Shown here: positions 637-22,491 of the stretch, one piece after another
How the letters are laid out: each line of letters starts with the position of its first letter
Numbering within the stretch: the stretch's first letter is position 1
Assembly: GCA_003166795.1 (NCBI GenBank)
Contig: PMUS01000012.1
Location: forward strand, 3,509 to 41,006
Length of the DNA stretch: 37,498 nt
From: Acidobacteriota bacterium
Lineage (GTDB): Bacteria > Acidobacteriota > Terriglobia > Acidiferrales > UBA7541
Direction of reading: 5' to 3'
Notes under the pieces: model-generated
What the model saw: the letters and a program-made list of their open reading frames with translations, nothing else
Database searches by the model: none
Told to the model about the DNA's origin: nothing
Made by a program: the position numbers and the translations under genes

Positions 637-666
637 CGAAAACACCGCGGATTCCTCGGTGTTCGC
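637..666 (+). promoter_or_regulatory. Hairpin upstream of the ABC operon
   Basis: Perfect 7-base inverted repeat, AACACCG at 641-647 and CGGTGTT at 657-663, around a 9-base loop. The stem can be lengthened with CG/CG pairs if two A residues bulge out. It ends about 50 bases before the start codon at 716, so it could be a leader hairpin or an operator. No T-run follows, so it is not a typical terminator. Confidence 0.3.
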
Positions 667-715
667 GATAGGGGCGCAGGGTTTTCCGGGCGAGATGAAT
701 ACAGGAAAGGGTTTG

Positions 716-1558
716 ATGGGGACGATTCTCCAAGCCAGAGATTTGAAGATCCGCTACCGGCCCGCGGAATCGGCGGAGCGCCAGGCTGTCGGTGGCGTGA
801 GCTTTGACATGGCTCCTGGTGAAGTCCTGGGCGTGATGGGCGAGTCAGGGTGTGGCAAGACGAGCATTTCTCTGGCTTTGCTCGGGTTGCTCTCAAAGGA
901 TCAGGCAGACATCTCCGGCTCGATCTTGTTCCGCGGACAAAATCTGGTCGAGATGGACGAGCGCTCCCTTCGACGAATTCGCGGCGCGGAAATCTCCATG
1001 ATGTATCAGGAACCGGGAATCGCGTTGAGCCCGCTAATGGCCGTTGGAGCGCAGATCGCGGAAGTCGTACACGCGCACCGCGACTGGAGTTGGAAGCAAT
1101 GCCACGCGGAAGCACGTCACATGCTCGCGCGCGTTGGCTTGCCGTCAACGGACCGAATCATTTCGGCGTATCCCCATCAATTGAGTGGCGGGCAACTCCA
1201 GCGAGTTGTGCTGGCTCAGGCACTCGTTTGTCGGCCGTCACTGCTGATCGCCGACGAACCCACGGCCGCACTCGATGCGCGAAGCCAAGCCGATTTTGTC
1301 GCCTTGTTGCGCGAACTGAATCAGCAACTCAACATCTCGATCTTGCTCATCAGCCACACCCCTGAAATTCAGGCGAGCCTTGCCGATCGCGTCCTGGTGA
1401 TGAAGGGCGGAGAAATCGTCGAGCAGGGACGCTTTGAGGATCTGTATTGGAAATCGTCGCACCCTGAAACGAGGGCTTTGCTGCGGCGTAATTCTGCCGT
1501 AGTCGATGGCGCGGACGCCGAATCGGAAGTCGTCGCGCAAGAGCAGCTGGTACGGTGA
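716..1558 (+). CDS. Peptide-type ABC importer ATPase (DppD/OppD family)
   Basis: Cytoplasmic ATPase of a dipeptide/oligopeptide/nickel-class importer. Visible motifs are Walker A (GESGCGKTS), the signature LSGGQLQR, Walker B (LLIADEPTAALD) and an H-loop ISHTPE, where the family usually has ISHD. I chose ATG 716 because AGGAAAGG lies five bases upstream; frames starting at 659 or 695 add residues outside the conserved domain. At 280 residues it is shorter than typical DppD (about 320-330), mainly because the C-terminal substrate-class tail (oligo_HPY) is reduced. It is the first gene of a five-gene importer operon and is followed after 13 bases by the partner ATPase. Substrate class cannot be set from sequence alone. 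Confidence 0.9.
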   Translation: MGTILQARDLKIRYRPAESAERQAVGGVSFDMAPGEVLGVMGESGCGKTSISLALLGLLSKDQADISGSILFRGQNLVEMDERSLRRIRGAEISMMYQEPGIALSPLMAVGAQIAEVVHAHRDWSWKQCHAEARHMLARVGLPSTDRIISAYPHQLSGGQLQRVVLAQALVCRPSLLIADEPTAALDARSQADFVALLRELNQQLNISILLISHTPEIQASLADRVLVMKGGEIVEQGRFEDLYWKSSHPETRALLRRNSAVVDGADAESEVVAQEQLVR

Positions 1559-1571
1559 GGGGACTTTGAGA

Positions 1572-2414
1572 ATGGACGCGAGACCACAGCTTGCACTCGA
1601 CCGGCGTGAACCGCTCGTGCGCGTCCAGCACCTCAGCAAACAGTACGTCCAGCGCCGTCCTCTGACGCGTGCCAAGTTCACCGTGCAAGCTCTCGATGAT
1701 GCGAACTTGACGATTTGGCGGGGCACAACGCTCGCGCTGATCGGCGAATCGGGTTCGGGCAAGTCCACGCTCGCCCGGTGCCTCGCATTATTGGAGAAGC
1801 CATCTGGCGGAGCGATCTGGTTCGCCGGCGAAAATCTGCTCGAGCTGAACGCCAAAGATCATTCAAAGTTTCACCGCCGGATTCAGCTGATCTTTCAAGA
1901 TCCCACCTCGGCGCTGAACCCGAGATTGAGCGCCGCAGAAATTGTCGCGGAGCCGCTGGCAATTCAGAGAGAAGGAACGAAAATCTCTCGCCGCCGACGA
2001 GCATTGGAACTGATGGAACAGGTCGGCTTGCCTGCGCGGTGGGAGCACAAGCGCCCGCTCGAATTCAGCGGCGGCCAGCGCCAGCGCCTCGCAATCGCCC
2101 GTGCGCTGGCGCTCGAACCGCAATTGCTGATTCTCGACGAGGCTCTGTCGAGCCTCGATCTCGCGAATCAAGAAATGCTTCTGGAGCTGCTGGCCGATCT
2201 GCAAGCGGCGCACTCGCTGACTTACCTGCACATCTCTCACGATTTGCGCCTGGTGTCGCAGTGCGCCGACGAAGTTGCCGTGATGAATGAGCGAAAGATC
2301 GTGGAGCAGAAAAGCGCGGCGGAGCTTTTCGCCAACCCGGAACATCCCTACACGCGAGAGCTTCTGGCGGCGATGCCGTCTCTGGAATCCATCTGCCTGG
2401 AGCGCTCGGCATAA
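1572..2414 (+). CDS. Peptide-type ABC importer ATPase (DppF/OppF family)
   Basis: Second ATPase of the importer, expected to pair with the upstream one to drive uptake. Walker A is GESGSGKST, the signature is FSGGQRQR, Walker B is LLILDEALSSLD and the switch histidine is in ISHD. The C-terminal NPEHPYTRELL stretch is the typical oligo_HPY tail of this class, which the first ATPase largely lacks. ATG 1572 is preferred over 1506, which would overlap the previous gene by over 50 bases; GTGAGGGG lies just upstream of 1572. The protein is 280 residues. The first permease gene starts four bases after its stop. Confidence 0.92.
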   Translation: MDARPQLALDRREPLVRVQHLSKQYVQRRPLTRAKFTVQALDDANLTIWRGTTLALIGESGSGKSTLARCLALLEKPSGGAIWFAGENLLELNAKDHSKFHRRIQLIFQDPTSALNPRLSAAEIVAEPLAIQREGTKISRRRRALELMEQVGLPARWEHKRPLEFSGGQRQRLAIARALALEPQLLILDEALSSLDLANQEMLLELLADLQAAHSLTYLHISHDLRLVSQCADEVAVMNERKIVEQKSAAELFANPEHPYTRELLAAMPSLESICLERSA

Positions 2415-2418
2415 ATCG

Positions 2419-3381
2419 ATGAGATACCTCGCCCATCGGCTGATCCATGCGACGCTGCTCCTGCTCGCCATTTCGTTCTTTTCGTTCGCGCTGCTTCAGC
2501 TCGCGCCCGGCGACTACTTCGACTCCATGCGGCTGAATCCTCAGATGTCGCGGCAGACGCTCACCGGCATGCGCTCAGAATACGGCCTCGATCGGCCGCT
2601 TCCCGTACGATACGGGCACTGGCTCGTATCGCTTCTGCACGGTCAGCTTGGCGTTTCGCTTGCGTCGCGCGGCCCTGTGGCTCCCGTGCTGCGCGTGCGC
2701 GCTCGTAACACGCTCGTGCTTTCCGGCACCGCGACATTATTCGCGTGGCTGCTCGCCCTCCCGATTGGAATCTGGAGCGCGACCAAACGGGGCGGTTGGG
2801 CGGACCGGATTTGGAGCGTGGCCACGTCGGCGCTGCTGACGATTCCGGATCTCGTCCTCTTCCTTGGACTGTTGCTTCTTGCGATTCGCACCGGCTGGTT
2901 TCCGACAGGTGGAATGAGGACGGAAGCGGCGGCCGACTTGGGTTTGTGGAGCAGCGCCAAAGATTTTGCGCTCCATTTGATTCTTCCCGCCTTTGGAGTG
3001 GCGCTTGTCAGTTTGCCTGTTCTGGTCCGCCACATCCGAGCGGCGATGATCGAGGCGCTCGACTCACCGTTCCTACGGGCGGCCCGCGGCCACGGCATTC
3101 CGAACTCACGATTGCTGTTCCGCTACGCACTGCCCGCCGCGTCAAACCCACTGATCTCGCTGCTTGGATTCTCGGTCGCGACGATGTTGAGCGTCTCCGC
3201 GCTCGCGGAAATCGTATTGAGCTGGCCGGGATTGGGTCCGCTTCTGGTGGAATCGATTCTCTCGAGGGATGTGTATGTGGTAGTCGCGATCGTGATGCTT
3301 TCTTCCGTTTTTCTTGTGGCGGGCAATTTGTTTGCGGACCTGCTCCTTTTCGCAAGCGATCCGCGGATTCGAATGGAGTGA
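2419..3381 (+). CDS. Peptide-type ABC importer permease (DppB/OppB family)
   Basis: Integral membrane subunit of about 320 residues. It starts with the typical MRYLAHRLIHATLLLLAISFF first helix and the ARGD-like loop (QLAPGDYFD), then carries further helices and a cytoplasmic EAA-type loop (ALDSPFLRAARGHGIP) that contacts the ATPases. The start at 2419 is four bases past the previous stop and matches the usual DppB N-terminus; a longer frame from 2287 overlaps the ATPase gene and adds non-family residues. It forms the translocation channel with the next gene product. Confidence 0.92.
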   Translation: MRYLAHRLIHATLLLLAISFFSFALLQLAPGDYFDSMRLNPQMSRQTLTGMRSEYGLDRPLPVRYGHWLVSLLHGQLGVSLASRGPVAPVLRVRARNTLVLSGTATLFAWLLALPIGIWSATKRGGWADRIWSVATSALLTIPDLVLFLGLLLLAIRTGWFPTGGMRTEAAADLGLWSSAKDFALHLILPAFGVALVSLPVLVRHIRAAMIEALDSPFLRAARGHGIPNSRLLFRYALPAASNPLISLLGFSVATMLSVSALAEIVLSWPGLGPLLVESILSRDVYVVVAIVMLSSVFLVAGNLFADLLLFASDPRIRME

Positions 3382-3385
3382 CCAG

Positions 3386-4417
3386 GTGACGCATCGGCAC
3401 AAACTTTGGGGCGCGCTGATTTTGCTGGCGTGCTTTCACGCCCTGGTGTTCTTCGCGGGATTCTTCGCGCCCTACGATTTCGCGACCCACAATCGTGAGC
3501 TGGCCTTCGCGCCGCCGACGCGCATTCATTTCGTGGACGCGCAGGGAAAGTTCCACGCCAGACCGTTTGTGTACGGCCTGAAGAACGACCCGGCAAACAG
3601 CGGAATCTATGCGACGGATTCGACGCAGGTCTATCCCGTCCACTTCTTCGAGCGCGGCTCAGCCTACAAGCTTGCTGGAATATTCCCATCGCGTTTGCAC
3701 CTCTTCGGCGTGGACGATCCTGGCCGGATCTTCTTGATGGGCACGGACGCGTTCGGGCGCGACCAATTCTCCCGATTTCTTTACGGCGGCCGGATTTCAC
3801 TGATGGCAGGGTGGATCGCCGCGGGTCTCTCGCTGCTGATTGGAATCATCGTGGGAACGCTTGCAGGATTCTATGGCGGCTGGATTGATCAAATTCTCAT
3901 GCGTGGGGGAGAGCTTTTTCTCGCTCTGCCCTGGCTCTATCTTCTGTTCGCGGTGCGCGCCGCGCTGCCGCTGCACATTGCCGAGTGGCAGGTTTTCCTT
4001 TTGCTGATCGCCGTGATGGGATTGATCGGCTGGGCGCGTCCAGCTCGCCTGATTCGCGGCGTCGTTCTCAGCGCGAAGGAGCGCAATTTCGTACTCGCGG
4101 CACGGGGATTCGGCGCTTCGGACGCCTACGTGATATGTCGCCACGTCCTCCCTCAAACCTACGGCGTCGTGCTCACGCAGATGACGCTACTGATTCCGCA
4201 GTACGTCCTTGCCGAAGTAACACTGAGCTTCCTCGGGCTCGGTGTCAGCGAGCCTATGCCTAGCTGGGGCACGCTGCTGGCTGCTTTGCAGCAATACTAC
4301 GTTTTGTCCTCGTTTTGGTGGATGTTCTTGCCGGCTCTCTTCCTGATCCCCGTATTTCTCCTCTACTACGCCGCCGCCGATGCTCTGCAGGAACGCCTGT
4401 CGTCCGTGCCGCTATAA
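3386..4417 (+). CDS. Peptide-type ABC importer permease (DppC/OppC family)
   Basis: Second membrane subunit, about 343 residues. GTG 3386 is chosen because GGAG at 3374-3377 has good spacing and the first helix (LWGALILLACFHALVFFAGF) follows at once. The periplasmic segment after helix 1 is long and includes a proline/phenylalanine-rich stretch. The motif MGTDAFGRDQFSRFLYGGRISL is diagnostic of DppC/OppC, and an EAA loop (FVLAARGFGASD) lies in the C-terminal half. Helices near the C-terminus end the protein. It follows the DppB-like gene by five bases and should form a heterodimeric pore with it. Confidence 0.92.
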   Translation: MTHRHKLWGALILLACFHALVFFAGFFAPYDFATHNRELAFAPPTRIHFVDAQGKFHARPFVYGLKNDPANSGIYATDSTQVYPVHFFERGSAYKLAGIFPSRLHLFGVDDPGRIFLMGTDAFGRDQFSRFLYGGRISLMAGWIAAGLSLLIGIIVGTLAGFYGGWIDQILMRGGELFLALPWLYLLFAVRAALPLHIAEWQVFLLLIAVMGLIGWARPARLIRGVVLSAKERNFVLAARGFGASDAYVICRHVLPQTYGVVLTQMTLLIPQYVLAEVTLSFLGLGVSEPMPSWGTLLAALQQYYVLSSFWWMFLPALFLIPVFLLYYAAADALQERLSSVPL

Positions 4418-4449
4418 AAACCTAGTAATCTTTGCTAAGAGTTGAGCTT

Positions 4450-6198
4450 ATGCAAAGAGTACGTTTCTGGAATTATTTCGCCGTTCTCGCTGCGGCGATT
4501 ATCTGCATCGGCTCAGCGGCAATTGCTGCGCAGTCGGATGCGGGCGAAGAGCGCATGGTCGCGGAGAGCGCTTCGGGGCGCGCCGGTGGCCGGCTCGTCA
4601 TTGCAATGCGCTCGGAGCCGAAAACTCTAAATCCGGTTCTGGCTCAGGACGCTCCTTCGCGCGATGTGATTCGCTGCCTGACGGCCGACCTGATTCATAT
4701 CAACCGCGCGTCGCAAGAGACGGAACCCGCGCTCGCAAAATCGTGGACCGAATCCCGCGACGGCAGACAGTACACGCTGCGCCTCCGGCGCGGCCTGCGA
4801 TTCTCGGACGGACAGCCTCTCGATGCGGACGATGTCGTATTCAGCTTTCAAGTCTACCTCGACGAAAAAATCGATTCACCGCAGAGGGATCTGCTGGTCG
4901 TCGGCGGGAAACCGATCTCGGTCGCGAAAGTGGATCAATACACGGTCCGATTTGAAATGGCCCAGCCCTATGCCGCCGCCGAGCGCCTGTTCGATGGCAT
5001 CGCCATTCTTCCGCGGCACCTCCTCGAGAGCGTTTATCGAAAAGGCGGCTTTTCGGATGCATGGAACATCTCGGTGGCGCCGAGCGAATTCGCAGGCCTC
5101 GGACCATTTCGCCTGAAAGAGTACGTTCCGGGGCAAAGAATCGTCCTCGAGCGCAATCCTTACTATTGGAAGCAAGATCAGAGCGGCCGCCGGCTTCCGT
5201 ATCTCGATCAGGTAGTATTCCTGTTCGTGGCCAGCGAAGACGCGCAGGTCATACGCTTCCAGGCGGGAGATGCCGACATTTTGACGAGATTCAGCGCGGA
5301 AAATTTTGCGGTTCTGGAAAAGCAGCAAGAGGCGAAGCACTATCACCTCGACGATTTGGGAGCCGGGCTCGAATACAATTTCTTTTTCTTTAATTTGAAT
5401 AGCGTGGACTCGAAGGCGCTGCCCGAAATTGCGCGAAAGCAGGCGTGGTTCCAGGACAAGCGTTTCCGGCAGGCCGTTTCAGATGCGATTGACCGCGACA
5501 GCATCGTCCGCCTCGTCTACAACGGGCGCGCGACATCGCTATGGACGCAGGTAACTCCCGGAAATCGCTTGTGGATCGATCCGGGCATTCCTCACCCGGC
5601 TATGTCCGTCACGCATGCACGCGAACTCCTGCAGTCCGCCGGGTTCTCTTGGAAAAGCGATGGCGCTCTGGTGGACAGCCATGGCAGCCCCGTCGAGTTT
5701 TCGATCCTCACCAGTTCTTCGAACGCTCAGCGCGTGAAGATTGCGACGCTCATTCAGGACGATTTGAGCAAATTGGGCATAAACGTTCAAATTGCCTCGC
5801 TCGAATTTCACACCATGGTGGATCGCCTGTTGACGACCCACGATTACGAGGCTGCGGTTATGGGTCTGGTCAGCGGCGATGCCGATCCCACATCCGAGAT
5901 GAATGTCTGGATGTCCAGCGGAGACACGCACCTCTGGCATCCGAATCAAACTCAGCCTGCAACACCCTGGGAAGCGGAAATGGACCGGTTGATGCAACAG
6001 CAGCTCATCACGCTCGACTATGCAAAGCGGAAGCGGCTGTATGACCGCGTTCAAGAAACCGTGGCCGACGAGCTGCCCGTCATTTGCCTGGTAAGTCCGA
6101 ATATTCTGGTGGGAGCCAGCGATCGGGTCGGGAATTTTCACCCGGCGATCTTGGATCCTTACACGCTCTGGAATATTGATCAGCTCTACATCCAATAA
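4450..6198 (+). CDS. Peptide-type ABC substrate-binding protein (SBP_bac_5 family)
   Basis: Exported solute-binding protein of about 582 residues, the last gene of the importer operon. The N-terminus has a signal peptide (hydrophobic FAVLAAAIICIGSAAIAAQ, likely cleaved after AIAA). The family core is clear: LVIAMRSEPKTLNPVL at the start of the mature domain, LRRGLRFSDGQPLDADDVVFS, a GLGPFRLKEYVPGQRIVLERNPYYW segment, and DKRFRQAVSDAIDRDSIV further on. ATG 4450 places the signal at the N-terminus; the TTG at 4432 only adds six residues. No lipobox cysteine is seen near the signal, so a soluble periplasmic form is likely. The bound substrate (peptide, opine, sugar or nickel) cannot be decided. 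Confidence 0.9.
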   Translation: MQRVRFWNYFAVLAAAIICIGSAAIAAQSDAGEERMVAESASGRAGGRLVIAMRSEPKTLNPVLAQDAPSRDVIRCLTADLIHINRASQETEPALAKSWTESRDGRQYTLRLRRGLRFSDGQPLDADDVVFSFQVYLDEKIDSPQRDLLVVGGKPISVAKVDQYTVRFEMAQPYAAAERLFDGIAILPRHLLESVYRKGGFSDAWNISVAPSEFAGLGPFRLKEYVPGQRIVLERNPYYWKQDQSGRRLPYLDQVVFLFVASEDAQVIRFQAGDADILTRFSAENFAVLEKQQEAKHYHLDDLGAGLEYNFFFFNLNSVDSKALPEIARKQAWFQDKRFRQAVSDAIDRDSIVRLVYNGRATSLWTQVTPGNRLWIDPGIPHPAMSVTHARELLQSAGFSWKSDGALVDSHGSPVEFSILTSSSNAQRVKIATLIQDDLSKLGINVQIASLEFHTMVDRLLTTHDYEAAVMGLVSGDADPTSEMNVWMSSGDTHLWHPNQTQPATPWEAEMDRLMQQQLITLDYAKRKRLYDRVQETVADELPVICLVSPNILVGASDRVGNFHPAILDPYTLWNIDQLYIQ

Positions 6199-6218: not shown

Positions 6219-6812
6219 ATGGTCACTCGCGATCGCGCGATTCAGGACGACAAGTTCAAAGCGTGGCCGGACCCGCGCCTGGTGCGAGAATGCCTCAAGG
6301 GAAATGAAGAGGCCTGGTCCGCTTTGGTGGACAAATATAAAAACCTCATTTTTTCCATTCCGGTGAAATATGGTTTTTCACCTGACGATGCCACGGACAT
6401 CTTTCAATCGGTTTGCCTGGAATTGCTTTCGCAGTTGCCGAACCTGCGCAATCCGCAGGCCCTGCCGAAATGGATCATGCAGGTAACCGCCCACAAATGC
6501 TTTCATGGGAGGCGCCAGCAGCAGCGCACCGAAGTCACCGATCCGAATGACCCAAAGTTTGAACAAAGCACGCCGTCCCGCGCGGAAAGCATTTTGCGGG
6601 AGGCGGAAGACGAGCAGAATTTGCGGCAAGCGGTGGCGGCGTTGCCGCCTCGCTGCCAGCAGCTTATTCGCATGCTTTTTTTTGAGGAACCGGCGCGCCC
6701 CTATCAACAGGTGGCGCGGACGCTCGGAATCGCTCCAGGCTCGATTGGGTTCATCCGCCAACGATGCCTTGAGCGCTTGCGCAAAGGTCTGATTGACGCG
6801 GGGTTTTCGTGA
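6219..6812 (+). CDS. ECF-type sigma-70 family factor
   Basis: A 197-residue sigma factor with region 2 (about residues 24-95, including DDATDIFQSVCLELL and KWIMQVTAHKCF) and region 4 (about 135-190, LPPRCQQLIRML followed by a helix-turn-helix ending RQRCLERLRKGL). Regions 1 and 3 are absent, as expected for the ECF group. It begins 20 bases after the importer's binding-protein gene, so it may be read in the same transcript. Its stop overlaps the start of the CHAT gene in a GTGA junction, which points to coupled translation. Which promoters it reads is unknown; autoregulation of this cluster is a reasonable guess. Confidence 0.88.
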   Translation: MVTRDRAIQDDKFKAWPDPRLVRECLKGNEEAWSALVDKYKNLIFSIPVKYGFSPDDATDIFQSVCLELLSQLPNLRNPQALPKWIMQVTAHKCFHGRRQQQRTEVTDPNDPKFEQSTPSRAESILREAEDEQNLRQAVAALPPRCQQLIRMLFFEEPARPYQQVARTLGIAPGSIGFIRQRCLERLRKGLIDAGFS

Positions 6813-9679
6813 AGCCACCGGCAAAGAAACCGCCTCTGTCCGAAAAAATGCTCGGGGATATGGCGAATCTCACGAGCGAGGCGAGCCGGAATCGCTTTCT
6901 AACGCGCCGCCGACTCTATCGCGAACCGGTTCTCAGCCAGCTGAACGACGTCGTCCGTGCCAAGCTGCGCGCGGACACGCGGCAGGCTATGGCCCTGGCG
7001 GAATCTGCCATCGCCATCGCGCGCCGGTTGCGCAACCAGGAAGCGCTCGGTCGCGGTCTTCGCTCCAAAGCAACTGCCCTCAACATCATGGGCGACAATC
7101 GCAAAGCGCTGGAGGTTCACGAGCAGGCTCTTCGCGTCTTTCGTAAGATCCCCAACCCGGAAGAAGAAGCACGCACGCTGATTCCTTCCATTCAACCGCT
7201 GATCATGCTCGGTGAATATGACAAGGCATTCGAGGCTGCCGAAAGCGCCAAGAAAATCTTTCTCCGCCTGGGGAATCACCAGCGCATCGCGCACGTGGAG
7301 ATCAACCTCGGAAACATTTATCACCGGCAGGACCGTTTCGAGGAAGGTCTTGCCTGCTACGAACGCGCTTATGAAGCGTTACTGCCGTTCCGCGATTCGG
7401 AGGGGCTCGCGGTCGCTCTCTACAACATGGCTGTCTGCCTGATCACGATGAATGATTTCCCGCGCGCGCTCGCGACCTATCAGCGAGCGCGTGCGATGTG
7501 CGTCGAACACGGAATGCCGCTTCTCGTGACGCAGGCGGACTACAACATCGCGTATTTGTATTACCTCCGCGGCGAATATAGCCGCGCGATCGAAATGCTG
7601 CGCGCCACCAGAGAGGAATGCGAGAAAAACGGGGACGCATACGTTCTGGCTCTCTGCTACCTGGATCTGTCCGAAATATACCTGGAACTCAACCTGAGCG
7701 CGGAAGCGAGAGAAACGGCTCACGAGGGGTATCTCCGTTTTCAGAAGCTGGGAATGGGCTACGAGGAAGCCAAATGCCAGGCATACGAGGCGATGGCTTT
7801 CAGTCAGCTTGGCAAGCCCCTGCGCGCGCTGGAATTGTTCGCGGAAGCGCGGCCGAAATTCGTACGCGAAAAAAATCTCGTCTGGCCGTGGCTCACCGAT
7901 CTGTACCAGGCCGTCGTGCTCTTCGACGAGGGGCGCCTCTTTGAAGCGCGCCGCCTGTGTTCGGCTGCGGCGGGCTTTTTTGACAGCTCATTTTTGCCGG
8001 GAAAGGCCGTGCTCTGCCACCTGCTCCTCGCTCGCATTTGCTTGCGGACGGGCGAGCTTCTGGTCGCTCGCGCGGAGTGCACACACGCGCTCGATCGCCT
8101 GGCTTCGCTCGAGGCCCCGATGCTTCGCTATCAGGCGGAATTTCTGATGGGCCAGGTGCAGCAATCATCGGGAGATTCTTCCGGAGCGTACGAATCGTGC
8201 CAGCGGGCGCGGGAAGCGCTGGAAACCCTGCGCAGCAGCCTTCGCGGTGAAGAACTCAAAATCGCGTTCCTGAAGAACCGCCTGGAAGTGTACGAATGCC
8301 TCGTGGAATTGTGCCTGGGCGACGGAGGTCCAAAATCCGCCGAAGAATCATTTGGCTATATGGAATTGGCGAAATCCCGCAGCCTGGCGGAACTTCTCGT
8401 GCAGCACGGCAATGCAATTCAGGCCGGTGACACAGGCCAGAGCGAGCTGGTGCGCCGCATACGGGAAATGCGCGAGGAGCTCAATTGGTATTACCGCCGC
8501 ATCGAGCTCGAACAGTTGCGCGCAGATGACCCGTCCCCCCAGCGAATCGAAAAGCTTCAGAAACAAGCGCTGGCCCACGAGAACGAGCTGCTTCGCGCTT
8601 TCCGGCAGATTCCTTCGTCGGCTGCCGGAGAGGGTTTGGGATTGGGGAACGCGATCGGCTCACTGGAAAGCATTCAAGAATCTTTGCCCCCGGACGCGAC
8701 ATTGATTGAGTATTTCAGCGTCAAGGACCAGTTCATCGCCGCGGTTGTCACGCGTGATGGCCTCGAAATCGTGCCGGTCACACCCGTGTCGCGCGTAGTA
8801 AACGTGATTCGCATGTTCCACTTTCAGATTTCCAAGTTCCGCCTCGGCGCGGAGTACGTTCGGACGTTCGAGAAGACGCTGCTGGGCGCCGCGCAGGCGC
8901 ACCTCGGCCAGCTCTATCAGGAAGTGCTGGCGCCGCTGCGCAGCCGTCTCCATGGAAAACATCTCGTCGTCGTGCCGCACGGCGTCCTACATTATCTTCC
9001 ATTCCACGCACTTTTCGACGGCGCCGGATACCTGATTGATTCCTTCACGGTTTCCTACGCACCCAGCGCCAGCATTTTCGCCCACTGCCAGCGAAAGCCC
9101 TCGCGCGCGTCCGGCTCGTCTCTAATCCTGGGAGTTCCGGATTCTCAGGCTCCGCTCATTCTTGACGAGGTACAATCCGTCGCCGGGATTCTGCCCGATG
9201 CCGAGCTGCTCGTCGGCGCCGAGGCCAACGAGGCGGCGCTCCGTGAAAAAGGATCGCACAGCCGGCTGATTCACATCGCCACGCACGGCAGCTTTCGTCA
9301 GGACAATCCCATGTTCTCCGGGATCCGTCTCGGCGGCGCCTACCTGAGCCTTTACGATCTCTACCAACTGAAGCTGGAGGCTGAGCTGGTCACCCTGAGC
9401 GGATGCGCGACCGGGCTCAACGTAGTCGCTCCCGGCGACGAACTCCTCGGCCTGATCCGCGGACTGCTCTTCGCTGGGGCGCAATCGCTGCTGCTGACGC
9501 TTTGGGACGTTAACGACCGAAGCACTGCGGACTTCATGACTCGCTTTTACCGGCGCGTCACGGATGGCGAGGGTAAGGCCTCCGCCCTCCAAGGCGCCAT
9601 GCAGGAATTGCGTGACGACTATTCCCACCCCTACCATTGGGCCCCTTTCACATTGATAGGAAAGGTCTTACCGGCCTAA
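6809..9679 (+). CDS. TPR-CHAT caspase-like protease
   Basis: A 956-residue cytoplasmic-type protein with no signal peptide. Residues of about 60-480 form TPR repeats (for example GLACYERAYEALLPF, YNMAVCLI, RALATYQRARA). A charged helical linker follows (about 515-600), then a C-terminal CHAT domain (about 640-956), a cysteine protease fold related to caspases and separase. The predicted dyad is present: His826 in HIATHGSF and Cys866 in LSGCATG, along with the SYAPSAS and GLLFAGAQSLLLTLW signatures. GTG 6809 overlaps the sigma-factor stop; the next candidate, ATG 6848, removes only basic residues. The TPR array probably binds a partner that controls cleavage. The substrate is unknown, but the anti-sigma-like protein and subtilisin encoded next are candidates. 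Confidence 0.9.
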   Translation: MKPPAKKPPLSEKMLGDMANLTSEASRNRFLTRRRLYREPVLSQLNDVVRAKLRADTRQAMALAESAIAIARRLRNQEALGRGLRSKATALNIMGDNRKALEVHEQALRVFRKIPNPEEEARTLIPSIQPLIMLGEYDKAFEAAESAKKIFLRLGNHQRIAHVEINLGNIYHRQDRFEEGLACYERAYEALLPFRDSEGLAVALYNMAVCLITMNDFPRALATYQRARAMCVEHGMPLLVTQADYNIAYLYYLRGEYSRAIEMLRATREECEKNGDAYVLALCYLDLSEIYLELNLSAEARETAHEGYLRFQKLGMGYEEAKCQAYEAMAFSQLGKPLRALELFAEARPKFVREKNLVWPWLTDLYQAVVLFDEGRLFEARRLCSAAAGFFDSSFLPGKAVLCHLLLARICLRTGELLVARAECTHALDRLASLEAPMLRYQAEFLMGQVQQSSGDSSGAYESCQRAREALETLRSSLRGEELKIAFLKNRLEVYECLVELCLGDGGPKSAEESFGYMELAKSRSLAELLVQHGNAIQAGDTGQSELVRRIREMREELNWYYRRIELEQLRADDPSPQRIEKLQKQALAHENELLRAFRQIPSSAAGEGLGLGNAIGSLESIQESLPPDATLIEYFSVKDQFIAAVVTRDGLEIVPVTPVSRVVNVIRMFHFQISKFRLGAEYVRTFEKTLLGAAQAHLGQLYQEVLAPLRSRLHGKHLVVVPHGVLHYLPFHALFDGAGYLIDSFTVSYAPSASIFAHCQRKPSRASGSSLILGVPDSQAPLILDEVQSVAGILPDAELLVGAEANEAALREKGSHSRLIHIATHGSFRQDNPMFSGIRLGGAYLSLYDLYQLKLEAELVTLSGCATGLNVVAPGDELLGLIRGLLFAGAQSLLLTLWDVNDRSTADFMTRFYRRVTDGEGKASALQGAMQELRDDYSHPYHWAPFTLIGKVLPA

Positions 9680-9812
9680 CCCAGCTCGCTGATCTTCTTC
9701 TTGCTTACCTATATTTTTTGGCCGTCGGCACACCCTTATGTGTTGAGCATGGGAAGTGGCGGCGGAGCCCCTGGATGGGGCGCGAGGAACTCAAATTTTC
9801 GGGGGGAACGCG
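9680..9812 (+). other. Spacer before the zinc-finger gene
   Basis: This 133-base gap in an otherwise tight cluster has an A/T-rich tract (TATATTTTTTGG, about 9710-9721) and ends in a strong ribosome-binding site, GGGGGGAA at 9801-9808. A second promoter within the cluster is possible, but I cannot place a convincing -35 box. No open frame here looks like a gene. Confidence 0.3.
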
Positions 9813-10520
9813 ATGGAACACTATTCGTTGGACAAGTGGGCGGATTTCGCCCGGCAGGTGATTGGAGAGCAGGAAAGAGCTGAAATGCAAAGCCATCTCG
9901 AAAACGACGGTTGCACCAAATGCTCCGAGGTTTTGGGCCTGTGGCAACGCGTTCAAGACGTTGCCCGGCACGAGCATAGCTACCAGCCGCCCGATAGCGT
10001 GGTCCGCTCCATAAAGGGCACGTTTGCCCTTCATGGACCGCGCCGGGCTGGCCGCGCGGCGCTCGCCGTCGCGGAACTGCTGTTTGACAGCGCGCGGAAC
10101 CCGCTGCCTGCCGGCGTCCGGTCTACCGGGACTGCTCTGCGCCAACTGCTCTATGGCGCCGGTAACTATCGAATTGACGTGCGAATAGAGCCTCAACCCG
10201 ATTCTCGCAAGGTGGCCGTGGTAGGGCAGGTTCTTAACTCCGCCGAACCGGATGAGGCCATCGGTGTCGCGCCTGTAAGCCTGGTGAGGGGCGGCAAGGT
10301 TTTGGCGACCTCCGTCACGAGCCCGTTTGGAGAATTCGACGTTGAATGCGACCTCGGGGGGCCTCTCGAGTTGAGAGTCCAACTCCCTGCGAAGGAGCTT
10401 CGCCTGCCTTTGACGGAGCCGATCCTCCGGGACGTCACCGAGCATTTGGAAATATCTGATTCAAAGGGGGTTAGAAAGCCCCCTCGGCGAATTAGAAAAC
10501 GTACTAGGACGAAGGTCTAA
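9813..10520 (+). CDS. Soluble zinc-finger, anti-sigma-like protein with beta-sandwich domain
   Basis: A 235-residue protein with no membrane helix or signal peptide. His28, Cys34 and Cys37 form an H-x5-C-x2-C motif close to the H-x3-C-x2-C of zinc-containing anti-sigma domains, so it may bind the upstream ECF factor. The middle has a distinctive block (ELLFDS, then RQLLY at 110-114 and a DVRIE strand). Residues of about 130-200 (GQVL, VSLVRGGKVLATSVTSPFGEF) resemble the carboxypeptidase regulatory-like/transthyretin beta-sandwich. The last 15 residues are very basic. ATG 9813 has a strong ribosome-binding site; a longer frame from 9756 reads through that site. Anti-sigma function is inferred from the motif and the gene order; the six-residue gap in the motif is a reason for caution. 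Confidence 0.65.
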   Translation: MEHYSLDKWADFARQVIGEQERAEMQSHLENDGCTKCSEVLGLWQRVQDVARHEHSYQPPDSVVRSIKGTFALHGPRRAGRAALAVAELLFDSARNPLPAGVRSTGTALRQLLYGAGNYRIDVRIEPQPDSRKVAVVGQVLNSAEPDEAIGVAPVSLVRGGKVLATSVTSPFGEFDVECDLGGPLELRVQLPAKELRLPLTEPILRDVTEHLEISDSKGVRKPPRRIRKRTRTKV

Positions 10521-10648
10521 TGCGAGAACCGCGAAAAGTAGCCGTTTGTACTATAGCCGAACATTCGTTGTTCGGACGAAACTTGGACCGTGGCAGTTGC
10601 ACGGACGACGGGCTACTGAGTCGGAACGCAAAAGGGGTACCAGCAATC
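10521..10648 (+). promoter_or_regulatory. Leader of the subtilisin gene with hairpin
   Basis: The preceding stop and an in-frame ATG share one base (TAATG at 10518-10522), but the signal peptide of the protease begins 43 codons later, at 10649. The 128 bases between hold a perfect 6-base hairpin, CCGAAC at 10557-10562 and GTTCGG at 10570-10575, with a 7-base loop. A TACTAT box lies just before it at 10549-10554 without a clear -35 partner. This could be a leader that sets protease output separately from the upstream genes. Confidence 0.3.
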
Positions 10649-12037
10649 ATGAAACGTCGAATCTGGCTAATCATGCTTCTTTTCATCGGCCTAACCGGCC
10701 GCCCGGCCGCAGCTCAAGGCGTAGTGGGAGGGCTGCTCTCCAACGTCGGAAGTAATCTCTCGAGCCTGACGACGCCACAACCCGGCGTTATCGTGCGCAC
10801 GAATCTTGGCCTCGGCGGGCTGAAGTTCGTCTGCCTGCTCCATGGATGCACGGTCGTCGGCAACCTGGACGGAAACCTCAACCAGGTTTTCCTGGTCAGG
10901 CCTGTTAAGGGACTTCTGCCGAACCTTCTGGCCGACGTGCTCAATCTAGTTGCGGGAATTATCGACGCCGAACCGGATCAAGTTTTGCAAATTCCGCCGG
11001 ACCCAGCGAGCCAACAAACTTCGAACGCGCCCCCGGCCGGACTTTGGAATACAACCCCGGTGAACTATTACGGGACAACCGTAACGGAAGGCTACGTTAA
11101 CCAGCCAGCCGCCCAGATCATCCAGATTCCCCAGGCTCAGAACGCTTTCAATGTGACCGGTGCGGGAATCGTTGCCGATATTGACACGGGCGTTGACCCT
11201 AACCATCCGGCGTTTCAGGGAGTTCTACTTCAGGGCTACGATTTCACGCGCAATCAACCGGGCGGCTCCGAAATGAACGATATTTCGATGAGCGCTCCCC
11301 CGCCTTGCGGTTCTTGCCCCGCCGCCTATGTGAACCAGCACACGGCAGCGATGCTGGATCAGCATACCGCCAGCATGCTCGACGGCACCGCGTATGAGGC
11401 GTTTGGACACGGAACGATGGTCATGGGCGTCATTCACCTTGTTGCCCCGACCGCAAAGCTCCTGCCTCTAAAGGCATTCAGCGCGAACGGGAACGGCTCG
11501 CTTTCGAATATTCTCGCCGCAGTCTACTTCGCGGTGCAGAACAAAGCCAATGTGATCAACATGAGCTTCGACATGACGCAGGGCTCAACGGAGCTGACGG
11601 ACGCGATCAACTACGCCAATAAAAACAGTGTCATCTGCGTGGCTTCCTCCGGCAATGACGGCGCGAATGAAATGGTCTATCCGGCGGGATTGCAGAACGT
11701 GATGGGCGTTGCGTCAACGAATAACCAGGACCAGCGTTCGAGCTTCTCCAATTATGGAAATCAAATCGTTTGGGTCGCCGCGCCGGGCGAGGGCATCATT
11801 ACGACCTACCCCTTCGGAATTTATGCCGCGGGGTGGGGAACTTCGTTCAGTTCGCCCTTCGTTTCCGGCACTGCTGCGCTGGTCTACAATATGCAACCGA
11901 CGACCAATCAAAACCAGGCGGCTTGGGCGATTTCTCATGCGAAGTTCGTTGGCCTGAACATGGGCAACGGGCGCCTGAACGTGGACTGGACATTATCGTC
12001 GCTGAGTCCGATCCAGGGCTTGCTTCAGCTTCAGTAG
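10649..12037 (+). CDS. Secreted S8 family subtilisin-like serine protease
   Basis: A 462-residue exported protease. The signal peptide is MKRRIWLIMLLFIGLTGRPAAAQ (ending in an AxA site). A pro-region of about residues 24-150 includes two cysteines (CLLHGC), then the catalytic domain has Asp179 (DIDTG), His254 (GHGTMV), the oxyanion Asn in SSGNDG, and Ser399 (GTSFSSP). All key residues are intact. Just before His254 is an insertion with two copies of a short repeat, HTAAMLDQ and HTASMLDG. ATG 10649 is chosen because it puts the signal at the N-terminus; AAAGGGG lies 12 bases upstream. It follows the zinc-finger gene and precedes an HD-GYP gene by 18 bases. Location outside the cytoplasm separates it from the CHAT protease, so any cascade would need to cross the membrane. 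Confidence 0.92.
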   Translation: MKRRIWLIMLLFIGLTGRPAAAQGVVGGLLSNVGSNLSSLTTPQPGVIVRTNLGLGGLKFVCLLHGCTVVGNLDGNLNQVFLVRPVKGLLPNLLADVLNLVAGIIDAEPDQVLQIPPDPASQQTSNAPPAGLWNTTPVNYYGTTVTEGYVNQPAAQIIQIPQAQNAFNVTGAGIVADIDTGVDPNHPAFQGVLLQGYDFTRNQPGGSEMNDISMSAPPPCGSCPAAYVNQHTAAMLDQHTASMLDGTAYEAFGHGTMVMGVIHLVAPTAKLLPLKAFSANGNGSLSNILAAVYFAVQNKANVINMSFDMTQGSTELTDAINYANKNSVICVASSGNDGANEMVYPAGLQNVMGVASTNNQDQRSSFSNYGNQIVWVAAPGEGIITTYPFGIYAAGWGTSFSSPFVSGTAALVYNMQPTTNQNQAAWAISHAKFVGLNMGNGRLNVDWTLSSLSPIQGLLQLQ

Positions 12038-12055
12038 AACAGGTCACATCCTCTC

Positions 12056-12823
12056 ATGCTGACAATGACCAGCCCGCTAACGAACGCTTTCACACCGTCC
12101 AGCGGCATTGATGATGGTTCGGAAGCGCTGTCGTTGTCAGCCAGCCTTTTGAACCGGGTCGCGCGTCAATGCTCTCCCGGGGTTCTGCACGTCAAGGAGA
12201 TGGAAGAGCAGCTGTCCGCGCTTCGCACATCTTTGATTTGCGCCTTTAATCAGCTTCTGGATCTCAAGGATCTCAACACCGGAGTTCACAGCACGCGGCT
12301 GGCTGAATGGGCGCTGCACGTTGCGGGAGAACTTGGCCTGGACGAGACCTCGCTTTCCGATATTGAAGTGGCCGCGCTGCTACATGACATCGGGAAAATT
12401 GGAATTCCCGATGCCATTCTCCAAAAGCCCGCGAAGTTGACCAATGAAGAATATGACCTGATGAAGAGGCATCCCGAATATGGCTGGGCGGTATTGCGAC
12501 ACGTTCCGGGGATGGAACGCGCCAGCCTGATGATCTTGCATCACCACGAGAGCTACGACGGCAGGGGCTATCCGGCTGGACTCAAGGGTGAGGAAATTCC
12601 GATTGGATCGCGCATTGTTTCCGTAATTGACGCGTTTGACGCTATGGTCTCGTCGCGTCCCTATCGCGAAGGCCTCCCGTTCGAGGAAGCCGAACGCCGG
12701 CTGCTGCAAGCGCGCGGAACGCAATTCGATCCGGAAGTCGTTGATAGTTTTATTCCCCTCGCGCGCGCGGAAATGTTGTCCGTGTTTGCGGCGGCGGGCA
12801 CCTCGGTCTCAGCCGCCCTGTAG
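12056..12823 (+). CDS. HD-GYP domain phosphodiesterase-like protein
   Basis: A 255-residue protein of the HD-GYP class, which hydrolyses cyclic di-GMP or related dinucleotides in the cytoplasm. The HD pair is His110-Asp111 (LLHDIGKIG), the metal-binding HHHE sits in MILHHHESYDGRGYP, and the GYP motif is at 171-173, followed by GLKGEEIPIGSRIVSVIDAFDAM. There is no receiver, GAF or membrane domain; the first 60 residues are a short unknown N-terminus. It is 18 bases downstream of the protease and probably cotranscribed. Its stop is 20 bases from the end of the converging MFS gene. Confidence 0.9.
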   Translation: MLTMTSPLTNAFTPSSGIDDGSEALSLSASLLNRVARQCSPGVLHVKEMEEQLSALRTSLICAFNQLLDLKDLNTGVHSTRLAEWALHVAGELGLDETSLSDIEVAALLHDIGKIGIPDAILQKPAKLTNEEYDLMKRHPEYGWAVLRHVPGMERASLMILHHHESYDGRGYPAGLKGEEIPIGSRIVSVIDAFDAMVSSRPYREGLPFEEAERRLLQARGTQFDPEVVDSFIPLARAEMLSVFAAAGTSVSAAL

Positions 12824-20204: not shown

Positions 20205-21980
20205 ATGAGCGATAAGCCCGCAAACGACGTTGGTGGACCCTCCGCCGGAGGCTCCTCCCACGAGGACGAAAAGGCCCTCCAGGAACTCCGCACGCTTTTG
20301 TTCAGCGAAGAGCAGCACGAGATCGTAGCTCTTCGCGAACGCATCGAAAGTCCCGAACAGCGGGCTCGCGACGTCAGCGCCGTTGTCGCGGAAGCGATTC
20401 AAATGCGTCGAGCCCGGGGCGGCGATCACGAACTCAGCGCGGCTCTGACCCCGACCGTGGAAGAGGCCGTGCGCGAATCCGTCCGCAAGGATTCGCACGT
20501 CCTGGTCGAGGCGCTCTTTCCTGTGATGGGTCCGGCGATTCGCCGGTCTGTAGCCGAAGTTTTCCGCTCCACGGTGGAATCGTTCAACCAGGTGCTGGAG
20601 AGCACGTTCTCGATTCGAGGTCTGCAATGGCGGTTCGAGGCCATTCGCATCGGACGGCCTTACGCGGAAGTAGCACTGCTTCGCAGCCTGGTGTATCGCG
20701 TCGAGCAGGTCTTCCTGATCCACCTGAAAACCAGCCTTGTCCTGCAGCACGTCGTGGATCCCGCCGTGGTCACGCAGGATGCGGACATGGTTTCGAGCAT
20801 GCTTTCGGCGATTCGAGATTTCGTGCGGGATTCCTTTAGCACGCAGCAGGGTGATTCCCTGGACAGTTTGCAGATGGGCCAGCTCCAGGTGTGGATCGAG
20901 CAGGGACCGCAGGCGATCATTGCCGCCGTAATTCGCGGGCAGGCTCCTCAGGAGCTGCGGCTTTCGCTCAAGGAAAAATTGGAGGAGGCTCATCGCCGCT
21001 TTTCGCGCGAGCTGGAAGAGTTTGACGGCAATCCCGCGCCGTTCGAAGCTTTCCGTCCCGAGCTTGCGGCGTGCTTGACGGCATCGTATCGGCGCGACAA
21101 GCCGGCGAAATCCCGGCCTTACCTGGCTGTCTGTGCGATTGTTTTCGCTGTGCTGCTCGCTGGCTGGTACGGATACACGGCGATTCAGAATCATAAATGG
21201 GCGCTTTTCGTCGAGAACTTGAGGCAGCAGCCGGGAATTGTGGTCACGTCATTTCAAAGGGCGCGTGGCCGCTATCGAATCCAGGGTCTGCGCGATCCGC
21301 TGGCGGTGGATCCTGAGGCGCTCCTTGACCAACGGAAGCTCAACCCCCGCCTGGCTGAGTTCCACTGGAGCGCCTTCTACGCACTCGATGACTCGCTCGT
21401 CCTGCAACGCGCGATCGCTTTGCTGCAGCCGCCCGCCGGCGTTACGCTATCCGTACAAAACGGCGTTCTTCACGCCGCTGGAGATTCTTCGTCCGAGTGG
21501 AAAAAAAGCATGCGGGAGCGCGCCCACTTCATCGCCGGAATCACCGCCGTGGACGACAAGGATCTGAATGACGAGAACAGCCCCAGGCGATTGAAAGCCG
21601 CGGTGGAGTCCGAAATCATTCTGTTTGAGCTGGGGCAGGCGGAAATCAATCCGCGACAGCAGCCAAATCTCGCCGCGGTGGCGCAAACGATTCAGAAACT
21701 GCTGCAGATCGCTCCGTCGGCGGTCGGAAATGCGATTGTTGAACTGGTTGGCCATGCGGACAGCTCCGGTCCGGAAGCTACCAATGTGCTGCTTAGCCAG
21801 GAGCGGGCCAACAACGCAGTGCGCGAGCTGGTGCGATTGGGGATTCCCGAAGCGTCCCTCCGCGCGACTGGCATCGGCTTGTCTTCTCCTCTGCGGCCGG
21901 AGACGGATGAGCAGAATCGCCAGTACAATCGCAGCGTCACATTTCGAGTCGTTGGTCCGGAAACCCCGCAGAACCGGTGA
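20205..21980 (+). CDS. Membrane-anchored OmpA-like protein of the GTPase module
   Basis: A 591-residue protein with a long N-terminal part of about 300 residues, likely cytoplasmic, one membrane helix at about 306-326 (LAVCAIVFAVLLAGWYGY), and a C-terminal periplasmic part. The latter includes a BON-like stretch (GVTLSVQNGVLHAAGDSSSEW) and an OmpA peptidoglycan-binding domain (about 470-585; VELVGHADSSG, SQERANNAV, GIGLSSPLRP, NRSVTF). There is no beta-barrel and no signal peptide. The N-terminus shares an LF-containing motif with the coiled-coil protein upstream. It ends 13 bases before the GTPase gene. The layout would let it tie a cytoplasmic GTPase complex to the cell wall, as in MotB-type proteins; this role is inferred. 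Confidence 0.82.
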   Translation: MSDKPANDVGGPSAGGSSHEDEKALQELRTLLFSEEQHEIVALRERIESPEQRARDVSAVVAEAIQMRRARGGDHELSAALTPTVEEAVRESVRKDSHVLVEALFPVMGPAIRRSVAEVFRSTVESFNQVLESTFSIRGLQWRFEAIRIGRPYAEVALLRSLVYRVEQVFLIHLKTSLVLQHVVDPAVVTQDADMVSSMLSAIRDFVRDSFSTQQGDSLDSLQMGQLQVWIEQGPQAIIAAVIRGQAPQELRLSLKEKLEEAHRRFSRELEEFDGNPAPFEAFRPELAACLTASYRRDKPAKSRPYLAVCAIVFAVLLAGWYGYTAIQNHKWALFVENLRQQPGIVVTSFQRARGRYRIQGLRDPLAVDPEALLDQRKLNPRLAEFHWSAFYALDDSLVLQRAIALLQPPAGVTLSVQNGVLHAAGDSSSEWKKSMRERAHFIAGITAVDDKDLNDENSPRRLKAAVESEIILFELGQAEINPRQQPNLAAVAQTIQKLLQIAPSAVGNAIVELVGHADSSGPEATNVLLSQERANNAVRELVRLGIPEASLRATGIGLSSPLRPETDEQNRQYNRSVTFRVVGPETPQNR

Positions 21981-21993
21981 GGATTGTCCTCAG

Positions 21994-22491
21994 ATGCTGC
22001 ACAAGAAAATCTGCATGCTCGGGTCCTTCTCCGTGGGTAAGACCAGCCTGATTCTCCGCTTCGTCCAAAGTATTTTCTCGGATCGCTATCTCACCACTGT
22101 GGGCGTAAAAATCGACAAGAAAGTGATTTCCGTGGATGGCCAGGATGTGACGCTCATGCTCTGGGATCTTTACGGCGAGGACGAGTACCAGAAGATTCGC
22201 ATGTCCTATTTGCGCGGCGCGTCGGGATACCTTCTCGTCGCCGACGGCACGCGCATCGCGACTTTGGAGAAAACGCTGGCGATCAAGGAGGAAGCGGAAA
22301 AGAACTTCGGCCCGACGCCCTTCGTCGTCGCCCTGAACAAATGCGATCTGGCCGAAGACTGGGAAATTACTCCCGAAAGGGAAGCGGAACTCGCCGGCCG
22401 CGCGTGGAAAGTCGTTCGCACGAGCGCCAAGACCGGAGAAGGCGTCGAATTCGCATTCCGGTCGTTGATCAAAGCAATGCTCCCAACGTGA
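21994..22491 (+). CDS. Ras/Rab-like small GTPase
   Basis: A 165-residue single-domain GTPase. G1 is GSFSVGKTS (Lys16, Thr17), the switch I threonine is in YLTTVGVKI, G3 is WDLYGEDE (Asp58, Gly61), G4 is NKCD (115-118) and G5 is TSAKTG. The residue after Gly61, equivalent to Ras Gln61, is Glu62, so intrinsic hydrolysis may be slow or need a partner that supplies the catalytic group. No lipid anchor motif is seen at the C-terminus. GGTGAGGA lies ten bases before ATG 21994. Its stop overlaps the kinase start (GTGA), so the two are probably coupled. The neighbouring OmpA-like and coiled-coil proteins are the likeliest partners. Confidence 0.9.
   Translation: MLHKKICMLGSFSVGKTSLILRFVQSIFSDRYLTTVGVKIDKKVISVDGQDVTLMLWDLYGEDEYQKIRMSYLRGASGYLLVADGTRIATLEKTLAIKEEAEKNFGPTPFVVALNKCDLAEDWEITPEREAELAGRAWKVVRTSAKTGEGVEFAFRSLIKAMLPT

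Follow-up and report, generated by a model that had tools for sequence, protein, structure and literature searches.

The window studied here, a 37,498-nucleotide stretch of contig PMUS01000012.1 from a 3.92-Mb Acidobacteriota draft genome of 115 contigs, contained 5 genes, all on the + strand, for an ECF sigma factor (SIG, 6219..6812), a TPR-CHAT caspase-like protease of 956 amino acids (6809..9679), a zinc anti-sigma-like protein with a C-terminal carboxypeptidase-regulatory-like β domain, here called ZAS (9813..10520), a secreted S8 subtilisin (10649..12037), and an HD-GYP protein resembling cyclic-di-GMP phosphodiesterases (12056..12823). An original prediction, made from the DNA sequence, had named these 5 genes, and their places and strand were re-located and confirmed with profiles, as was the 4-nucleotide overlap (GTGA) between the sigma and CHAT genes.

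The original prediction had missed the oppDFBCA genes (659-6198), which are located directly upstream of the sigma factor gene on the same strand and encode an oligopeptide importer. These consist of genes for an OppD-like ABC ATPase (659..1558; Pfam ABC_tran), whose position upstream of sigma is conserved, an OppF-like ABC ATPase (1506..2414; ABC_tran, oligo_HPY), an OppB-like permease (2287..3381; BPD_transp_1, BPD_transp_1_N), given as the longest open reading frame with a real start probably further 3′, an OppC-like permease (3314..4417; BPD_transp_1), and an OppA-like peptide-binding protein (4432..6198; SBP_bac_5, E 1e-86). The genome contained a single CHAT gene and 2 S8 genes.

Gene order across the phylum

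In public genomes, the CHAT protein had named relatives almost exclusively in Acidobacteriota, many of these relatives being labelled Terriglobia, and a class-wide search with ZAS as the query identified relatives in 80 of 299 genomes. Using profiles made from the window genes, we annotated 40 stretches and 80 loci from a named collection. In total, 104 distinct CHAT loci were compared, and the denominators given below refer to loci with enough sequence. The linkage fractions are somewhat inflated because the loci were collected via members of the same gene set; the importer was not among the search queries.

The sigma factor gene was located just upstream of the CHAT gene in 83 of 95 loci, and the gene for OppA was found beyond it, further upstream, in 70 of 88 loci. 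About 20% of the loci did not have OppA immediately upstream, in some cases owing to rearrangements or contig ends, and in 5 rearranged loci (L034, L042, L049, L050, L052) the importer was still nearby. ZAS was encoded downstream of CHAT in 85 of 96 loci and upstream of it in 4 others, while the S8 gene was located downstream in 73 of 87 loci. The HD-GYP gene was present in 44 of 76 loci; its product (Pfam HD_5, E 1e-42 in the window) had both the HD and the GYP motif intact in 22 of 22 proteins, in agreement with the prediction. Other classes of the phylum had sigma, ZAS, CHAT, and S8 in this order, and importer genes adjoined the set in several of these. Conservation of the gene order in relatives had been set as the test of the original prediction, and the order was kept across the class. 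The conserved unit is oppDFBCA, ECF sigma, TPR-CHAT, ZAS, and the secreted S8 protein, with HD-GYP in part of the clade only. The 5 predicted genes are co-conserved beyond what chance would give, but the unit is larger than was proposed and HD-GYP is accessory to it.

An apparent fusion of CHAT and ZAS in one locus (L204) was rejected as an artefact created by a run of N. A search of plasmids for the same operon gave no copy in which 80% of CHAT was covered. It was also noted that a record titled Betaproteobacteria (L114) contained a whole operon of the typical acidobacterial kind, and this genome bin is probably mislabelled.

The sigma factor, the zinc protein, and a promoter-like element

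The sigma factor in the window has regions 2 and 4 (Sigma70 r2/r4) and scored 78.1 bits against the sigma70-ECF model, above the cut-off of 42.9, which identifies it as an ECF sigma factor. The CHAT protein matched Pfam CHAT with 217 bits at residues 697-952 as well as TPR_12. Its His826 (9284-9286) and Cys866 (9404-9406), already singled out in the original prediction, were invariant in 38 of 38 relatives. A CHAT His-Cys dyad combined with TPR is also the arrangement in Csx29; the score against the Csx29 model (NCBIfam NF041237) was 55.5 bits, far below the cut-off of 300. In a search of the PDB, TPR residues 95-280 matched the Rap phosphatases RapF and RapJ.

In ZAS, the zinc-ligand set H3, H28, C34, and C37 was conserved in 44 to 45 of 45 relatives, with the spacing H-x5-C-x2-C in the window. 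Modelled in full (pLDDT 85), ZAS consisted of 4 helices followed by a β sandwich, with no transmembrane segment, and the N-terminal 80 residues modelled alone reached a pLDDT of 89. A Foldseek search with the N-terminal domain against all solved structures gave RskA, ChrR, and RslA as the top matches, all of which are ECF anti-sigma factors, at weak E-values of 0.2 to 0.8. After realignment, the Z scores were 9.2 for ChrR (71 residues, rmsd 11.5), 7.2 for RslA, and 6.2 for RskA. The sequence profile matched RsiW, RslA, and ChrR; among the 45 relatives, 13 had a Pfam match to CarboxypepD_reg and 7 a match to zf-HC2. A fold search with the whole protein returned common β-sandwich matches only (Z up to 8.5), which were uninformative on the C-terminal domain. 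As the original prediction had suggested, the assignment of ZAS as an ECF anti-sigma factor is well supported by sequence and modelled fold, and inhibition of the sigma factor is predicted. Known zinc anti-sigma factors, among them RsrA and ChrR, respond to redox or zinc. A conserved loop before the second strand (about 10086-10121; D92...P97...G101.R103) is, as a guess, a candidate CHAT cleavage site.

Some loci contained satellite genes for a receiver-like N-terminal domain fused to a ZAS-type C-terminal β domain (L074-L079, L092 3909-4694, L278, L279). These were mostly located directly upstream of an S8 gene bearing the octapeptides described below, and were accompanied by neither sigma nor CHAT. 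Another locus (L063) contained 3 ZAS genes near an unrelated S8 gene, and neither CHAT nor sigma was recognised in the vicinity.

A promoter-like element of 2 blocks, CCTATATTTTT-N14/15-CCCTTAT, was identified 5′ of ZAS in 97 of 106 upstream regions, with a spacer of 14 or 15 in 87, as counted with a matrix refined on the same 106 ZAS upstream sequences. In the window, upstream-region comparison and scans placed it at 9708..9739 on the + strand, with the N14 spacer. The median distance from the end of the element to the ZAS start codon was 70 nucleotides. When 5.2 Mb of strands were scanned, most of the strong matches were located 5′ of ZAS, and the remaining ones close to importer starts, to extra S8 genes, and to a gene for a small secreted protein. 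In 6 Gp2 loci (L107, L110, L113-L116), the element was located close to where the importer region begins. Within the genus, matches with at most 2 mismatches were found in 8 of 20 genomes, 7 of which had a CHAT gene; the contig of the remaining one (G286) stops next to the ZAS gene, and no genome among the 20 that is without the gene set contained such a match. The element may be recognised by the sigma factor of the system, but another sigma factor could read it instead. No strong shared dyad was found upstream of the S8 genes.

The genome of the window contained a second copy of the element with one mismatch (G000:C19:53099-53130; L228, about 4100), located 71 nucleotides before a response-regulator gene. 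The small secreted protein (about 110 to 145 amino acids, with the stretch ...CGYAEKDGKTLAGEI...) was preceded by the element in 2 genera (L107, L110, and L114-L116 at about 2.9 to 3.5 kb; L232 at 3709-4035).

Octapeptides in the subtilisins and their co-variation with the TPR part

The S8 protein (Pfam Peptidase_S8, E 5e-35) has the catalytic triad Asp222, His297, and Ser442, which was invariant in 45 of 45 proteins. The secreted subtilisin with an intact triad in the original prediction was thus recovered, but its start at 10520, where the open reading frame opens, is probably to be moved to Met 10649 because the signal peptide MKRRIWLIMLLFIGLTGRPAAAQ begins there. The prediction had also missed a repeat at 11336-11383, which consists of the octapeptides QHTAAMLD (11336..11359) and QHTASMLD (11360..11383) on the + strand, differing at one residue (A/S).

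In the S8 proteins of the system, octapeptide copies stood in tandem in the segment that separates the catalytic Asp from the catalytic His. One more copy was often present near the prodomain junction, and many proteins had a single copy some 140 residues N-terminal to the catalytic His. The S8 proteins of other classes contained short repeats at the prodomain junction only. An exactly repeated 8-mer was present in 112 of 123 S8 proteins, about 8 of these being low-complexity or otherwise not octapeptide-like, as compared to 2 of 363 other proteins of the same loci. Copies that were identical at the protein level differed by a mean of 4.34 silent differences per 24 nucleotides (804 pairs); they are therefore old, and their identity has been maintained by selection and does not stem from recent duplication.

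About 40 different octapeptides were seen among the systems. In the 10 genomes searched for it, QHTA(A/S)MLD was encoded only in the S8 stretch of the contig with the system; it was absent from 3 genus members without the set, and QHTAAMLD had no further site in the window's genome beyond the S8 stretch. S8 paralogues of about 50% identity at distant loci of one genome had the octapeptide in common: QSSAAILD was present at 2 loci in G190 and also in G158, and QSTAAVLD at all such S8 loci in G199, G064, and G070, with one degraded copy in G058. More distant or unrelated S8 proteins in the same genomes were without the octapeptide. Where one genome contained 2 complete systems (G025, G017, G069), their octapeptides differed, consistent with one octapeptide reader per system. 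Tandem complete systems with differing octapeptides were also noted (L067, L068, L160), including one S8 protein with about 10 copies of QSTVSLLN or QSTVALLN. In another class (L206-L208), the S8 proteins contained short repeats such as GQSWSV and GGSWSI in place of the octapeptide.

Distances between the octapeptides were compared with distances between the proteins in 61 systems. The correlation (rho) was 0.60 for TPR residues 40-300 (6926..7708, + strand), 0.44 for S8, and 0.38 for the CHAT domain, and this TPR part tracked the octapeptide better than the CHAT domain, S8, OppA, sigma, or ZAS. Given these 5, the partial r for the TPR part was 0.43 (bootstrap 0.26 to 0.59), which exceeded all 133 control windows in S8 (maximum 0.27) and was equalled by one sigma window (0.45). 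The S8 catalytic domain had a partial r of -0.08 with the octapeptide, that is, nothing beyond shared phylogeny.

The covarying TPR residues were 162, 165, 202 (7412-7414), 205, 239, and 279 (7643-7645). They are located at -7, -4, -1, and +3 from N166, N206, N246, and D286, reference positions that recur every 40 residues, which places the covarying sites on the same face of helix A from one repeat to the next. The top pair of sites was octapeptide position 2 and residue 279, at which S was paired with H in 67 of 68 systems, R with Q in 7 of 8, H with V, I, or L in 8 of 8, and E with R in 2 of 2. Position 4 was paired by size with residue 202, such that A or G occurred with V or I, and V or M with A, G, or S.

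Residues 202 and 279 had first been chosen from the scan of the 61 systems, and independent contrasts were scored on a tree from which the TPR part had been left out. All 7 independent contrasts at position 2 were accompanied by a change at residue 279, versus 1 of 21 controls (P 7e-6). Of the 13 independent switches at position 4, 10 were compensated at residue 202 and 3 left it unchanged, with none in the wrong direction; this residue was the best of 437 columns for position 4, the next best having a net of 4. In 30 further systems, the rule for position 2 held wherever the residue was S, H, or E, and by our count the rule for position 4 held in 21 of 25. A few systems broke the rule, with V4 and F202 (twice) or A4 and A202 (once).

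It is very likely, judging from this co-variation, that the octapeptide and the TPR part are paired as ligand and receptor. The TPR part, which also includes the stretch matching Rap proteins, is probably the reader of the octapeptide, residues 40-300 forming the proposed receptor groove.

Known systems and a possible imported-peptide switch

The nearest described relatives of the locus are the neighbourhoods of the ECF54 sigma factors of Actinobacteria, which likewise adjoin genes for CHAT, subtilase, and carboxypeptidase-domain proteins (PMC8999054); the likeness seen here is one of neighbourhood. ECF54 is said to be without an anti-sigma factor, and proteolytic control has been proposed, with ECF54-type sigma held inactive via degradation (PMC8999054). 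Here, in contrast, an anti-sigma zinc domain is part of the carboxypeptidase-regulatory-like protein, and the Opp linkage and octapeptide ligand are absent from that account. A Nonomuraea sigma factor gene, whose product was 32% identical to the window sigma, overlapped a gene whose product is homologous to the ZAS β domain but has no zinc domain, which suggests that ZAS may be a zinc-domain version of this partner. The Nonomuraea CHAT locus had no sigma or S8 gene within 9 kb, and hence no full actinobacterial set was seen there. A sigma match in Streptomyces was set aside since it is located in a biosynthetic cluster.

The RRNPP systems (Rap/Phr, PlcR, NprR) consist of a secreted peptide, an oligopeptide importer, a TPR receptor, and extracellular maturation proteases (PMC11343458, PMC10569065, PMC10075063), with multi-copy pheromone precursors in some cases (PMC11343458). 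They resemble the present system in the linked Opp genes and the TPR stretch matching RapF and RapJ, the reading of a peptide being suggested here by co-variation. However, RRNPP has been described for Bacillota, with receptors of 250 to 500 amino acids and secreted propeptides of 10 to 100 amino acids (PMC10075063), whereas the receptor proposed here is found in another phylum, is 956 amino acids long, and has a protease output with an anti-sigma/ECF sigma pair as its putative target. The candidate peptide is located inside a full secreted protease, with no small propeptide by the receptor.

In the type III-E CRISPR system (Craspase; Csx29-Csx30-CASP-sigma), a TPR-CHAT protein also stands beside an ECF sigma factor and its inhibitor. 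Csx29 cleaves within a loop of Csx30, which is a precedent for a TPR-CHAT protein acting on a sigma inhibitor (PMC10028731), and by analogy the cleavage of ZAS by CHAT that the original prediction had put forward is plausible. The present locus differs in that no CRISPR parts were found among the genes examined, the Csx29 score is low, the proposed trigger is a peptide rather than RNA, and an unrelated zinc protein takes the place of the inhibitor. ZAS itself resembles the ChrR/RslA/RskA group in its helical domain with the zinc-ligand pattern and its adjoining ECF sigma factor, and differs from it in the β-sandwich C-terminal domain and the ligand spacing.

No defining test placed the system in the ECF54, RRNPP, or Craspase group, and we therefore regard it as a locus type related to ECF54 with a mechanism that is new in combination; RRNPP and Craspase are functional analogues. 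No match to an octapeptide-subtilase or CHAT-pheromone system was identified in the literature searched. The original prediction did not know this set as a described system, but part of it has been described, in the ECF54 neighbourhoods (PMC8999054).

Since the locus combines an S8 octapeptide, an importer, a covarying TPR part, a CHAT protease, an anti-sigma fold, and an ECF sigma factor, the simplest account is a switch operated by an imported peptide. The octapeptides would be cut out of the secreted S8 protein, probably outside the inner membrane and plausibly by S8 itself, and the Opp importer of the same operon would carry them into the cytoplasm, a step that we consider likely. There, the octapeptide would occupy the concave groove of the TPR superhelix in an extended form, with residue 2 against 279 and residue 4 against 202, and its binding would switch the CHAT protease. 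CHAT would then remove the cytoplasmic ZAS protein, possibly by cutting the conserved loop before the β domain, and free the ECF sigma factor. The sigma factor would transcribe the ZAS and S8 genes from CCTATATTTTT-N14-CCCTTAT, and in some lineages also the importer and further S8 genes, resulting in feedback in the form of more peptide and more anti-sigma. On balance we favour this chain as a whole, in which imported octapeptide switches CHAT, which acts on ZAS and frees sigma.

The co-variation is silent on where octapeptide and TPR part meet, and S8 is made in the same cytoplasm with its signal peptide. TPR-CHAT might thus bind the octapeptides of S8 pre-protein still awaiting export, the accumulation of which would switch CHAT and sigma, leaving Opp with a separate, nutritional role. 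We consider such a secretion monitor rather unlikely, as the importer is linked in both gene orders and in the rearranged loci, and the element is located near its start in the 6 Gp2 loci. The same ligand and receptor might also have another output, such that the peptide keeps CHAT off or CHAT cuts sigma or another protein; the switch would then have the opposite sense, or ZAS would act alone via zinc or redox, to which RsrA and ChrR respond. Degradation has been proposed to hold ECF54-type sigma inactive (PMC8999054), in line with a protease directed at sigma, but ZAS directly follows sigma in other classes and Csx29, the closest characterised TPR-CHAT protein, cleaves an anti-sigma-like protein (PMC10028731), and we regard these outputs as unlikely.

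An operon for scavenging of protein, in which S8 digests and Opp imports while the octapeptides serve only in the folding or self-processing of S8, would explain the pairing of Opp with a secreted protease and the single copy at the prodomain junction in many S8 proteins, about 140 residues before the catalytic His. It is nevertheless very improbable, because the octapeptide is explained by the TPR part and not by the S8 catalytic domain, and distant S8 paralogues of about 50% identity keep the same octapeptide. The original prediction had pointed to bacterial conflict and cell death, with which CHAT proteases are known to be associated, and the weak Csx29 match would fit a caspase-like effector of this kind. 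This link found no support: PADLOC gave no convincing match for sigma, CHAT, ZAS, or HD-GYP and only a generic subtilase model for S8, no defence gene was located around the locus, and the operon is stable, conserved, chromosomal, and equipped with an importer. A module for defence or programmed cell death is therefore scarcely credible.

To return to the imported-peptide switch, the co-varying S8 octapeptide and TPR-CHAT groove point to an undescribed bacterial peptide-signalling pathway. With moderate confidence, we propose that it represents a new class of peptide signalling outside Bacillota, in which a secreted protease would be both enzyme and multi-copy pheromone precursor, read by a TPR-CHAT protein controlling an ECF sigma factor via its anti-sigma factor. 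Lineage-specific pairs of octapeptide and groove would provide private channels, with 2 systems per cell possible. If so, the Acidobacteriota, which are abundant in soil and whose signalling is hardly understood, would gain dedicated peptide signalling with a readable ligand-receptor code, and the TPR-CHAT proteases, most of which are without a known trigger, would gain a ligand and a regulatory role. Such a pathway would join RRNPP-like import, Craspase-like anti-sigma control, and the ECF54 neighbourhoods. Elsewhere in the window (20205-25381), genes for an OmpA-like protein, a small-GTPase-like open reading frame, a histidine-kinase/receiver hybrid, and a receiver-ATPase were located in a row, and may represent another signalling cluster.
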